Positions 24,080 to 29,812 of a DNA stretch of 44,829 nucleotides are shown in pieces. Each line of letters begins with the position of its first letter. Position 1 is the stretch's first letter. The stretch comes from Thermoplasmatales archaeon SM1-50. Its GTDB lineage: Archaea; Thermoplasmatota; E2; DHVEG-1. Made by a program: the position numbers and the translations under genes. The notes beneath the pieces were generated by a model. The model saw only the letters and a list, made by a program, of their open reading frames with translations. It had not been told where the DNA came from and did not search any database. The stretch is taken from positions 1 to 44,829 of the forward strand of contig LSSI01000040.1 in the NCBI GenBank assembly GCA_001595945.1. Direction: 5' to 3'.

Positions 24080-24170
24080 TATTAAATAAATAATAATATG
24101 AAGATTTAAATATTTGTTTTTTGTAAAACTTTTTTGTGCTAAGGGTTGTTCCCCTTGATCAATGCCCATT

Positions 24171-24328
24171 CGAATAGTAAAAAGTTGTTGTTGTATCTTA
24201 AATACACATGGGTATGTCTGGTGATGCTGCAGTGAATAGATCTGGTTCTCGAATAGTAAAAAGTTGTTGTTGTATCTTAAATACACATGGGTATGTCTGG
24301 TGATGCTGCAGTGAATAGATCTGGTTCT
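24171..24328. repeat. 79-bp perfect tandem duplication (two copies, 24171-24249 and 24250-24328)
   Basis: CGAATAGTAAAAAGTTGTTGTTGTATCTTAAATACACATGGGTATGTCTGGTGATGCTGCAGTGAATAGATCTGGTTCT occurs twice head-to-tail. Confidence 0.97.
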
Positions 24329-24426
24329 GCTACGCGTTGCTTTTAAGAGGATAGAAGCGATTTTTCTCCTGTTGATGATCTTTTTGTCTTTTCTTTCCAA
24401 TAGATGGTTTTCATTGAAATCGAAAC

Positions 24427-24523
24427 ATTTATATATAGTATTAACAATTGTTAACTCAGAGAGGTGCAATTGTTGATGAGCGAAACTTTTTTTCTTTCCT
24501 CCCAAATCCTCATCAACAATTAA
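24427..24523 (+). other. Short transcription-unit candidate A: TATA box, palindrome TTAACAATTGTTAA (24441-24454), 13-bp IR (24468-24480/24509-24521), 15-codon ORF (24476-24523)
   Basis: Direct reading; mini-ORF MSETFFLSSQILINN; loop contains TTTTTTTCTTTCCTCC. Confidence 0.55.
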
Positions 24524-24592
24524 CTTCCTATTAGTAACTTTATAAAAAAAATTATAATCCGAGAAAAACACACATGAATTTTTAGTGCAAAT

Positions 24593-24904
24593 TCAATCGT
24601 TATTTTTTTGTCGTGTAAAAAGTCCTTCAATCAAAAGATACATGTTGATACAAAGTAATGGAACGAAAATAAAAAACAGATATTCCTCAACAGGAAGTCC
24701 AAGAATGTTTCCCACAATCTGGTCCTGCGAAAAGCTCCACAATTCCATTCGAACAGAGAGTTGATCCCAAAGCACTGCAATGAGAAATAAGATAAACAGC
24801 GTGATACATAATGTCTTTAAATGTAGTTTTTTTCTATTCAGATACAGCAAAATGATATTAGGAATGATCACAAAAACACTAAGGAGCTGCAGATACAAAT
24901 ACAT
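24593..24904 (-). CDS. Lycopene cyclase-domain protein (single-domain, CarR/CrtY heterodimer-type)
   Basis: 103 aa, 3 TM; LWDQLSVRMELWSFSQDQIVGNILGLPVEEYLFFIFVPLL. Confidence 0.8.
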   Translation of the reverse strand: MYLYLQLLSVFVIIPNIILLYLNRKKLHLKTLCITLFILFLIAVLWDQLSVRMELWSFSQDQIVGNILGLPVEEYLFFIFVPLLCINMYLLIEGLFTRQKNND

Positions 24905-24995: not shown

Positions 24996-25433
24996 ATGGC
25001 TATGAATGCAGTAATAAAACAAATCAAAGGCTGTTCTTTTATCGGGAAGGCGGATAGCAATCACTGGGTGCCTATCGACAGTTCAAAAGAGCATGCAGGA
25101 TCTGATGCTGCGACACGTCCGATGGAGCTTGTGTTGCTTGCATTGGGGAGCTGTACTGGCTGTGATGTCGTATCGATTTTACAAAAGAAAAAGGTTCAAT
25201 TGGAGCATTTTGAGATTGTCATTACTGCGCAGCGATCTGAGACACATCCAAAGATGTTTATAAACATCCATCTTGAGTTTGTGTTCGTTGGTTCAGGACT
25301 AAATCCGACGCATCTTGAAAGGGCTATTGCATTGTCACAGCAGAAATACTGCCCGGTTTCCGCGATGCTTTCAGCAAAGGTCAAAATCACCACCTCCTAT
25401 CGAATTGTTGAAGAAATGAAAAACGATACTTGA
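24996..25433 (+). CDS. OsmC-family protein
   Basis: ATRPMELVLLALGSCTGCDVVSILQKKKV...YCPVSAML. Confidence 0.92.
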   Translation: MAMNAVIKQIKGCSFIGKADSNHWVPIDSSKEHAGSDAATRPMELVLLALGSCTGCDVVSILQKKKVQLEHFEIVITAQRSETHPKMFINIHLEFVFVGSGLNPTHLERAIALSQQKYCPVSAMLSAKVKITTSYRIVEEMKNDT

Positions 25434-25524
25434 TAAAATATTTAAGTTGACATATCGTAGCTCTTAGGGTCAAACCCCTCCTTTTTTTTTATTTTTATTT
25501 GGAAGAAACCGTTAAAAACGAAAA

Positions 25525-25700
25525 CCATATAAATAAGAATTAACAATTGTTAATTAGGGGCGTAAAATATGAGGGAGCGTAGTTTTTTTCCATCTTTCCT
25601 CCTCTTCTCACCAGCAAAAACTTTCTCAATTTTACGTCCGCCTTTCCATACAACACAATATCTCTGTCTCTACAATTCTTTTAAAATCGGTCGTCCTTGA
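25525..25700 (+). other. Short transcription-unit candidate B: TATA box, palindrome AATTAACAATTGTTAATT (25538-25555), IR (25561-25568/25629-25636), 43-codon ORF (25569-25700)
   Basis: Direct reading; mini-ORF MRERSFFPSFLLFSPAKTFSILRPPFHTTQYLCLYNSFKIGRP; loop contains TTTTTTTCCATCTTTCCTCC. Confidence 0.55.
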
Positions 25701-27982
25701 CTCGAAAAACCATGCAATGGCTCATAGGGATTAAAGGCAGGATCACCATATAACACACGAACAAAGAATGTCGGTGGTTCTGCATCGATGCGTTTTTCTC
25801 CACGTAACGCCTCACCAATGCTCCAGTCATCAACAATCAAATGATTCTCTAAAACCGTAAGACCCGATTCCTGACCGGTTTCCCGTGTCGCCCCAACAAA
25901 AGCATTACAGCCCGCATGAAGCATGGCAAGCCCAATGTTCATTTGCGGTGGAAGACCATCGGTGCGTCCCACCAAACACGCGGAGGTCAAAAAAACACTT
26001 GGTTTATCATAGACCCAGTCCTTGGCATGAGCGACATCAACCGCCTTTGAATACATATCAAAACCGTAAAACGACGCGGGGAACCAAAACCAGTCACCAT
26101 GACCAAGGTATTCGATATAGTTCGCAGCAGTAAAAACATAGAACCGCTCTATAAACTGTCGACTGTTGCGGAAAATTCCATAGACTTTTGAGGAAAAATT
26201 ATAGTCCCTTATTTCCCTAGCATAGGGTATCTGATGGAACAATCCTCCTGTTTCACCAAATCCTTCTCCAAATATGAAACTGAACCGATGATGCCAATCA
26301 CTCGCATGTTCTGGGGTTCCACAGAGGGGTTCATAGAAGAACGTCCGCGCAATCAAGACAGAAACATCATAGACATCCCAGCTGATGAGGCGCCCCACGG
26401 AGAGATTCTGGCCAAGGGAATAGGGATTATCAGACGGCAATCCTCGTTCAGGGATACCTCCTTGAGACGGTCCGTAATAGTACATAGGAATCATAGTCGT
26501 GTCCGCTAGAATTGCAAGCCAGGCAGGTCCATTGAGATACCCATTGAGAAGGTCATACGCCTCAAGTGTATCTAATGTCATTTTTAGTTGTTGCACTGTT
26601 GTGTTGACTTTCTCATTGGTAAAGAGATGGAGGGGTTCAGTATACCATGGTCCGGCACCGAAGCCTTGGGCAGCTGCTACATAGGAAATATCCGTTAGCT
26701 CCCAAGAGGCATTTGCGATAAGCAGCCCACCATGAGCTGCAGTAAGGTACGGGGCAAGATTGGAGAGCTTTGGAATGACAGGGATATGTGGAGAACCAAG
26801 CGTTGAAATGGTTATGTTGATGGTGATATCCGCATCAACAAAAGATAACCCTCGCTGGATATAAAATCCACCTTTTATCCCATAATAGACCGTTATCTCA
26901 AGATTGTATGGTCCAGATGCGTTGCAGGTAAGTGTTTCAAGATATGTTTTTCCAACATCATAGCCCATGCTATTGGCGTATGCGATAATCTGCCCATGCG
27001 CATCGAAAAGTTTAATGAAAATAAGGGGGTCAATTGGAGATAGATGCCCAAATAACGACCCGTGTTTTTGCGAGATTTCCCCGGAGATTTGTATATGGTT
27101 AATGCCATCAGGGATTGATATTGAAGCGTAACAAGTATCATTGCCAACAATATCAAGTTTCTTACTTAGGATAATGATTTTTTTATTGGTGATATGCTCA
27201 TGCATCATTATCGTGGTTGTGTTGATGACCTCAGGTGGGATAACGTCTGAAGGATTCGTCATGGCTAGATAGTTGATAGAACCAAATTGTATAGTAATAG
27301 CAGATAAAACTGTCTCGGTAATCGCCTCTTCATTGGGAAGGGATGTGATGGTCACATTTGGCAGGGTAAGTAAGCTATCCCCGACAAGATATGCCTGGGT
27401 GGTATGAAGCTGCGTACAGGCGATTTCAAGCGCCTCCTCGTTATTATCATACAGGAGGATGGGGATGTTAAGGTAACTTGCAAGCGGTGATGCAAGCAGA
27501 CTTAGATGGTACAAATCCGTATTTATTCCATAAGGTAGGATAAGAACAGTTGGTGCTGTGAGAAATATCTCTGTCGCTAGTGCGATAGCAACTGAAGGAG
27601 CAGATCCTAATATCTCAATCGTATGGTGCGTTGTGTTGAGATGCTCACCAATCACTAGGACACTAGTATTACTAAAGGAGAGATACGATGCAAGAAACCG
27701 CGCCTGAGAAGCAGTAAGATTGCCAGCATGAGAGATTAACAAAGGCAGAAGACCGCTGGTGTTCGTTGCGCTATCATACCAACAGGCGACACTAGTACCG
27801 ATAAGACTGAAGAATGGATCGCTTTCTGCCGCAACCACAGCATTCGCGATAGGAGTTCTATACGATTGATGGACGATAAGTTGTGCTGATGGGACATGTA
27901 TCTGTTCTTGTCCGATGCCATGCACTTGCAGACTACAACATAGAAGGAATAAGCCAAGGATGATTGTCGCAGATGCTTTCAT
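25670..27982 (-). CDS. Large secreted protein, C25/gingipain-like (caspase-fold) peptidase candidate with N-terminal cell-wall-binding-repeat-like region
   Basis: Signal peptide; EYLGHGDWFW (His) and PSVFLTSACLVGR (Cys) dyad pattern; LGDPAFNPY-like C-terminus. Confidence 0.7.
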   Translation of the reverse strand: MKASATIILGLFLLCCSLQVHGIGQEQIHVPSAQLIVHQSYRTPIANAVVAAESDPFFSLIGTSVACWYDSATNTSGLLPLLISHAGNLTASQARFLASYLSFSNTSVLVIGEHLNTTHHTIEILGSAPSVAIALATEIFLTAPTVLILPYGINTDLYHLSLLASPLASYLNIPILLYDNNEEALEIACTQLHTTQAYLVGDSLLTLPNVTITSLPNEEAITETVLSAITIQFGSINYLAMTNPSDVIPPEVINTTTIMMHEHITNKKIIILSKKLDIVGNDTCYASISIPDGINHIQISGEISQKHGSLFGHLSPIDPLIFIKLFDAHGQIIAYANSMGYDVGKTYLETLTCNASGPYNLEITVYYGIKGGFYIQRGLSFVDADITINITISTLGSPHIPVIPKLSNLAPYLTAAHGGLLIANASWELTDISYVAAAQGFGAGPWYTEPLHLFTNEKVNTTVQQLKMTLDTLEAYDLLNGYLNGPAWLAILADTTMIPMYYYGPSQGGIPERGLPSDNPYSLGQNLSVGRLISWDVYDVSVLIARTFFYEPLCGTPEHASDWHHRFSFIFGEGFGETGGLFHQIPYAREIRDYNFSSKVYGIFRNSRQFIERFYVFTAANYIEYLGHGDWFWFPASFYGFDMYSKAVDVAHAKDWVYDKPSVFLTSACLVGRTDGLPPQMNIGLAMLHAGCNAFVGATRETGQESGLTVLENHLIVDDWSIGEALRGEKRIDAEPPTFFVRVLYGDPAFNPYEPLHGFSSQGRPILKEL

Positions 27983-28840: not shown

Positions 28841-29812
28841 GTGCGAGAATTAGATTCAAAGGATCATAAAATCCTATACCATCTTTTTTTAAATTCAAGA
28901 CAATCGCTTTCATCCGTTGCAAAAAAAGTCGGCCTTCAGAAGAGCGTCGTGGAATACCGGATCAAACGACTGCAGACAAAAGGCATCATAAAAAATTTTA
29001 ATGCAATGGTCGACGTCTTCAAACTTGGGTTTTCAGTCTACCGACTATACATCGTCTTACAATACGCATCACCAGACAAAGAAAAGGAAATCATAAATCA
29101 TTTCGTCAACCACCATCATACCTGGAGCATCGCATCAACAAAGGGAAGATATGACCTAATCATCACCATTTTAGTAAAATCCCCAAATCATTTCTATGCA
29201 TTCTACGAAGAAACCCTGCGACACTACCGGTATTACTTCAAAGAAATTTTCTTCTCACAGCTCTACGAGTCTTTCGGGTACAAGCATTCACTGCTTCTCA
29301 ATGACTTTGCAGCATCCCATGAACGAGCCTATGAATATCGATATAACGGACAAACGGTCAACATAGACGTGGTGGACTATAAAATACTTAACTTACTTGC
29401 GAAAAACACGCGGATCAATAGTGTTGAGATCGCAAGCCAAGTTAACGTGTCGACAGTGACGATTCACTCCCGGATAACCAAACTAATCAAATCAGGGGTT
29501 ATACAGCGGTATTCGATTACCATGGACATCAATAAACTTGGGCTGCGGGAATTTATCGTAAACCTCTCCCTACGGGATTACAATAAGAAAAACCAGATCA
29601 TTACCTATCTAAGCGACAACCCATTCCTCTGGGAGATTCATAAAGCGATCGGTGGGTACGATTTGGAAATCACCCTCTATGCGACAAATTTTGAGCATTT
29701 CTACCGTGTAATGGAAGATCTGCGAAAGAAATTCCCTGAGGATATCGCAAATTATGATTATCTGTATGTCACCGAGGTGTTCAAATCAAATATACTGCCT
29801 GAAAAAATATGA
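28841..29812 (+). CDS. Tandem Lrp/AsnC-type transcriptional regulator (two HTH + ligand domains), GTG start
   Basis: DSKDHKILYHLFLNSRQSLSSVAKKVGLQKSVVEYRIKRLQTKGIIKNF and second VDYKILNLLAKNTRINSVEIASQVNVSTVTIHSRITKLIKSGVIQRY. Confidence 0.88.
   Translation: MRELDSKDHKILYHLFLNSRQSLSSVAKKVGLQKSVVEYRIKRLQTKGIIKNFNAMVDVFKLGFSVYRLYIVLQYASPDKEKEIINHFVNHHHTWSIASTKGRYDLIITILVKSPNHFYAFYEETLRHYRYYFKEIFFSQLYESFGYKHSLLLNDFAASHERAYEYRYNGQTVNIDVVDYKILNLLAKNTRINSVEIASQVNVSTVTIHSRITKLIKSGVIQRYSITMDINKLGLREFIVNLSLRDYNKKNQIITYLSDNPFLWEIHKAIGGYDLEITLYATNFEHFYRVMEDLRKKFPEDIANYDYLYVTEVFKSNILPEKI

Follow-up and report, generated by a model that had tools for sequence, protein, structure and literature searches.

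A candidate family of operator-linked hairpin small RNAs with anti-Shine-Dalgarno loops in sediment Thermoplasmata

The window analysed here is a whole stretch of 44,829 nucleotides from a Thermoplasmatales archaeon. An archaeal promoter lies in it near position 24,427 and is followed by a palindrome and by an inverted repeat. What does this short unit (unit A) encode, what might control it, and on what could its product act? An earlier note, made from the letters of the sequence, had read it as a standalone transcription unit with a repressor-site palindrome, an RNA hairpin exposing CCUCC and a 15-codon ORF. We followed up this reading by computational comparison with related genomes.

Results

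Unit A is a free-standing promoter, operator and hairpin

A check of the window sequence found all elements at the positions given in the earlier note, in the order CGAAA-CAT-TTTATATATA-GTA-TTAACAATTGTTAA-hairpin. The features are as follows.

24330..24420, - strand: decayed remnant of a divergent pyridoxamine-oxidase-like gene (intact copy in G007)
24421..24437, + strand: BRE-like CGAAA and TATA box TTTATATATA (TATA at 24428-24437, CGAAA immediately 5'; sequence check and promoter-direction count)
24441..24454, no strand: operator palindrome TTAACAATTGTTAA (sequence check and genome count against a reversed control)
24455..24529, + strand: predicted small RNA, hairpin (fold z-score, pairing, pairwise identity)
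24468-24480 and 24509-24521, + strand: stem arms AATTGTTGATGAG and CTCATCAACAATT; lower stem 24458-24466 with 24523-24529
24481..24508, + strand: unpaired pyrimidine-rich loop, with the anti-Shine-Dalgarno CCTCC at 24498-24502 (sequence check, fold)

The spacing from TATA box to start is usually about 25 nt in archaea, which places the predicted start just past the palindrome. The latter therefore sits where a bound repressor would block transcription, and the repressor-site geometry that had been proposed is borne out by the coordinates. The exact palindrome TTAACAATTGTTAA occurred 10 times in the 2.09-Mb genome, as compared with once for the reversed control, and 48 sites of TTAACRATYGTTAA were counted in four related genomes versus 2 for the control. 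The unit also stands alone, as claimed, since the nearest downstream gene (24593-24904) is on the opposite strand and the next gene on the + strand, encoding OsmC, starts at 24996. The 13-bp perfect inverted repeat with CCTCC in its loop is present as described. The 79-nt RNA folded at -21.7 kcal/mol, compared with -9.4 ± 2.6 for shuffles (z = -4.7).

Sequence comparison established unit A as a conserved entity, found in six of eight congeners with 86-92% identity. Mean pairwise identity among the orthologues was 0.87 from TATA box to operator and 0.88 in the hairpin, but 0.48-0.57 in the upstream and 0.38-0.45 in the downstream flank. Conservation thus stopped abruptly at the edges of the unit, being confined to promoter, operator and hairpin. 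In 10 A-type sequences, 97.1% of the stem cells were paired, as against 35-64% with the partners slid, and a U-A to C-G double change was present in 4 of the 10. Covariation was weak within the A alignment, as in that of type D described below, because the sequences are close. The loop segment CCTCCCAAATC was the same in all seven A orthologues.

The neighbourhood (pyridoxamine-oxidase-like gene, lycopene-cyclase-like gene, OsmC) was kept between species. The pyridoxamine-oxidase-like gene shares the promoter region of unit A in congeners and is intact in G007 (Pfam Pyridox_ox_2, E = 6e-27), while the frame in the window retains only ...KKIINRRKIASILLKAT and then enters a 79-bp repeat. This repeat, an exact tandem duplication (24170-24328; two copies, 100% identical) within the decayed gene, may have arisen recently or may be an artefact of assembly. 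The small lycopene-cyclase-like membrane protein (24593-24904, - strand; Pfam score slightly below gathering) adjoins unit A in several of the congeners.

The 15-codon ORF exists in the window, but it is not conserved. Indels of 1-2 nt in the loop produced three frames in seven orthologues, with ORF lengths of 15, 21, 21, 19, 19, 26 and 39 codons. A small protein or leader peptide gene was therefore rejected, and unit A is best read as noncoding. The earlier reading accordingly holds for the standalone unit, its palindrome, its anti-Shine-Dalgarno hairpin and its kinship with unit B (see below), and fails for the mini-ORF.

Unit A belongs to a multi-copy family

The resemblance noted between unit A and a second unit in the window, unit B, was confirmed: promoter, operator and hairpin plan are common to both, but the stem sequence differs. 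The features of unit B are as follows.

25519..25535, + strand: BRE-like CGAAAA and TATA box (sequence check and promoter-direction count)
25540..25553, no strand: operator palindrome (sequence check and genome palindrome count)
25558..25639, + strand: predicted small RNA hairpin (fold)
about 25578-25620, + strand: loop, with the anti-start CAT at 25591-25593 and CCTCC at 25598-25602

The consensus stem of seven B-type sequences comprises 21 pairs, 2 of them compensatory. A third copy, unit C, is present in this genome on contig 39. Unit B is convergent with a gene for a secreted C25 (gingipain-type) peptidase (25670-27982, - strand), and unit C directly precedes a gene for a secreted M28-type peptidase. 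Further along the window, 28841-29812 (+ strand) encodes an Lrp/AsnC-type protein with two HTH domains on a single chain.

Homologous hairpin/palindrome pairs, whose absence elsewhere the earlier note would have counted against its reading, proved abundant in relatives. The pattern operator-N32..62-TTCCTCC, i.e. operator, hairpin and UUCCUCC, was found at 43 places (a few of them promoters without hairpin), spread over 14 of the 45 family genomes, and a control pattern at none. When a collection of 84,980 species was scanned, repeated matches were limited to Thermoplasmata MAGs; the single bacterial matches, one each and with folds showing no stem around CCUCC, look like chance. The types agree in promoter, operator, long stem and a pyrimidine loop that is unpaired and contains CCUCC, but share no stem sequence, and the fold z-scores of the units reach -6.6. 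The members are thus predicted to be structured short RNAs with a conserved unpaired anti-Shine-Dalgarno sequence.

Type D, the founding member, is the most widespread type and is divergent from the gene for a 120-aa putative XRE-type regulator (L002:1625-1987). Its 20-nt loop, AUCCUUUCCUCCUCUCCUCA, was present with at most 1 mismatch in 27 of 45 family genomes from 12 genera (control 0), and in none of 35 genomes from other families of the class. In the D alignment 97.8% of cells were paired, versus 64% or less with the partners slid. An all-genera MAFFT alignment failed to align the stems, and the helix that RNAalifold derived from it is spurious; stems were therefore compared across genera by swapping arms. 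D arms paired with their own partner at -30.3 kcal/mol, compared with -19.8 kcal/mol when swapped between genera, and the own partner was better than every foreign arm in 9 of 18 cases.

A covariance search of the window with Rfam 15 returned two tRNAs and no known family at unit A. Among twelve family loci none reached the gathering threshold, the sole match, on one unit, being to Y RNA (26.3 bits versus the 38 required, E = 0.27); a kinship with Y RNA was dropped, as this match fell below gathering. A search of open-access journal papers found no account of such RNAs. These comparisons point to a previously undescribed, multi-copy family of putative hairpin small RNAs in uncultured sediment Thermoplasmata. 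Congeners and relatives of the window's genome are Thermoplasmata MAGs. The host family is probably MBG-D / Ca. Thermoprofundales, which fits the numerous secreted proteins and the C25 peptidase gene beside unit B (PMC6461988).

A candidate regulator and other genes behind the operator

Among 52 genomes of the order, 47 encode homologues of the regulator. The operator motif TTAAC-N4-GTTAA preceded the regulator gene in 20 of the 21 upstream regions examined, most of which also contained a C-rich hairpin in divergent orientation, and further paralogues adjoin other RNA units. Cys55, Cys96, Cys99, Cys112 and Cys115 were invariant in nine regulator sequences, the first lying in the predicted recognition helix and the other four forming a CxxC...CxxC pair. 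The AlphaFold model (pLDDT 75.8) is helical, with helices in an HTH arrangement, and its best Foldseek matches are XRE/lambda-repressor-like, though weak (E of 0.2 or worse). Searches of Pfam, NCBIfam and PDB sequences gave no usable match, and the name COG2522, which we had presumed for this protein, was unsupported by a literature search. From the linkage, and from the presence of the operator upstream of the regulator's own gene, we infer that this protein binds TTAACAATTGTTAA.

Protein genes, too, lie behind the operator, often with the TATA box placed as in the RNA units. They encode an HdrC-like iron-sulfur protein and an HtrA protease (each in several genomes), Thi4, a rhodanese, a SUOX-like molybdoprotein, a desulfoferrodoxin-like small protein and regulator paralogues. 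This set of genes suggests a redox or sulfur signal.

Individual loci behind the operator were inspected. The HdrC-like gene is right behind it in three species (L009:950-1477, L195 and L204) and divergent from malic enzyme in two. A conserved 170-aa protein without Pfam family, carrying a metallopeptidase-like HEYIHSLG, follows it in four genomes (L198:2118-2700, L196, L203 and L210). In one of these (G014) a 70-aa desulfoferrodoxin-N-like protein (L196:5189-5398) adjoins an operator, divergent from the 170-aa protein.

Loops are complementary to the translation starts of secreted proteins

Pairing of the loops with start regions was assessed on about 445 kb of the window's own genome, comprising 238 genes with a Shine-Dalgarno sequence of at least 4 bases, of which 52 were secreted-like and 186 other. 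A simple hydrophobicity rule defined secreted proteins, and gene starts were assigned in part from Shine-Dalgarno strength. For loops A, B, C and E15 the preference for secreted start regions was greater than with any of 60 dinucleotide shuffles; that of D was matched or beaten by 7 of 60 shuffles and that of E70 by 3 of 60. This was replicated on 400 kb of G014, which belongs to a different genus, with 0/60 for F2 and F3, 1/60 for D14 and 6/60 for F1; loops A and E15, taken from the window's genome, likewise gave 0/60 there. In internal gene windows the loops behaved like shuffles, with no pairing excess.

We considered the possibility that generic anti-Shine-Dalgarno loops damp all leadered mRNAs, the preference for secreted proteins reflecting stronger Shine-Dalgarno sequences in the latter. 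In a stricter control, CCTCC was retained and only the loop flanks were shuffled (80 shuffles). Loops A (26/80), C (35/80) and E70 (26/80) then showed no special preference for secreted starts, theirs being accounted for by the CCTCC core, which speaks for this explanation. In contrast, B (3/80), D (3/80) and E15 (0/80) exceeded these shuffles on secreted start regions, indicating extended pairing, and the E15 loop is approximately the antisense of the secreted consensus GGA-GGA-AUG-AAAAA. We consider such an unspecific action unlikely. The complementarity of loops to start regions thus goes beyond composition at the level of the family; for unit A it amounts to the CCUCC core, the simple anti-Shine-Dalgarno sequence being sufficient and no longer match supported. 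Complementarity spanning the start codon rests on the other members. CAT, the anti-start triplet, was found 2-10 nt 5' of CCTCC in 26 of 46 loops versus 7.9 ± 2.6 in shuffles, a count that is indicative only, because paralogue loops are related and units are not independent.

The loop might instead be a protein-binding decoy, recognized by an RNA-binding protein or mimicking the 3' end of 16S rRNA, with no mRNA pairing. Such a role would fit the base-for-base conservation of the 20-nt D loop in 12 genera together with the outcome of a search for a long complementary mRNA target conserved between genomes, in which the D loop returned only the RNA units themselves; an architecture recalling Y RNA, as in the weak match mentioned above, also goes in this direction. 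The lack of a long conserved target is also expected of a broad RNA directed at Shine-Dalgarno sequences. Furthermore, the loops of paralogues vary yet stay complementary to start regions, and the preference for secreted starts recurs in two genera with no such excess inside genes, making a decoy improbable in our estimation.

The antisense of several loops reads GGAGG-N5..7-ATG, as though the opposite strand were the functional transcript, with a hidden translation start or a micro-ORF. Yet 29 of the 46 units have a GAAA-TATA promoter on the C-rich strand, 5' of the operator, whereas only 2 of the 46 have one past the hairpin on the other strand; in random 45-nt windows the frequency was 2.5%. 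In addition, unit A loops have no ATG in either reading, and its + strand mini-ORF is not conserved, so that we regard this strand assignment as very improbable. The several copies per genome might also evoke a mobile element or repeat (MITE, REP), or a palindrome that arose by chance, with no regulatory role. This can practically be dismissed, as stems of different types share only plan and operator, the neighbourhood of unit A is kept between species, and the operator precedes protein genes in the same TATA geometry.

Discussion

On balance, we favour, as probable, the view that these are trans-acting sRNAs which form one repressor-controlled family and would mask the Shine-Dalgarno or start sites of secreted-protein mRNAs. 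Unit A would then be transcribed into a noncoding hairpin RNA of ~75 nt, one paralogue among many. The putative XRE-type helix-turn-helix protein with its conserved cysteine cluster would occupy TTAACAATTGTTAA between TATA box and start, keeping the RNAs off. Upon a signal, probably redox or sulfur stress, it would release the RNAs together with the protective genes for HtrA, the HdrC-like protein, Thi4, rhodanese and the SUOX-like protein. The stem would present the unpaired pyrimidine loop to the Shine-Dalgarno sequence of mRNAs for secreted and surface proteins, several paralogues also pairing with the AUG and the following A-rich codons, and translation of these mRNAs would be blocked.

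More tentatively, the whole may form an archaeal secretome-stress response, in which one thiol- or iron-sulfur-sensing repressor and one operator would govern an HtrA/redox/sulfur regulon and fast-evolving sRNAs antisense to a common secreted-protein start sequence. It would be an independent counterpart, in sediment archaea living on secreted peptidases, of sigmaE-RybB/MicA. The sigmaE regulon also includes the HtrA protease (DegP in E. coli).

To our knowledge, archaeal sRNAs with known targets are few, and those characterised are mostly single RNAs. Repeated sRNAs that share an operator, are linked to a regulator, keep a hyperconserved loop and have a definable class of targets would offer an archaeal model of regulon-wide post-transcriptional control, and the predictions are sharp enough for tests with cloned parts in E. 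coli or in a cultured archaeon. Sediments harbour MBG-D archaea in abundance, and extracellular peptidases, C25 types among them, are expressed by these archaea (PMC6461988); a switch on the translation of secreted proteins would therefore bear on sedimentary protein turnover.

In function, the family would most resemble RybB/MicA and the C-rich IsrR/FsrA RNAs. Multi-copy, stress-induced hairpins with CCUCC-containing loops are also represented by the Rhodobacter CcsR / cuckoo RNAs, which are alphaproteobacterial and under RpoH-type control. RybB and MicA, which are sigmaE-dependent in enterobacteria, are likewise stress-regulon sRNAs acting on many envelope-protein mRNAs, but they are bacterial, Hfq-dependent and activated by a sigma factor, and pair by their 5' end (PMC1804206). 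The new family, in contrast, is archaeal and has a predicted repressor site, a putative pairing region in the hairpin loop, many paralogues and no sequence kinship to them. The iron-sparing IsrR/FsrA RNAs are controlled by a metal repressor and pair through unpaired C-rich stretches with the Shine-Dalgarno sequences of many mRNAs; they are bacterial, Fur-controlled and directed at iron proteins (PMC9410917), whereas here the candidate regulator is a putative XRE-type protein and the putative targets are secreted-protein start regions. The nearest archaeal precedent is sRNA162 of Methanosarcina mazei, a trans-acting sRNA that uses a single-stranded stretch to mask its target's ribosome binding site. 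It differs in its length of 191 nt, in having one main target (the mRNA of an ArsR-family regulator) plus a cis target, and in having one near-duplicate and no operator-linked family (PMC3510493). Hence, the general mechanism is already known from RybB/MicA, IsrR and sRNA162, while the family, its regulator and its class of targets appear to be new for archaea.
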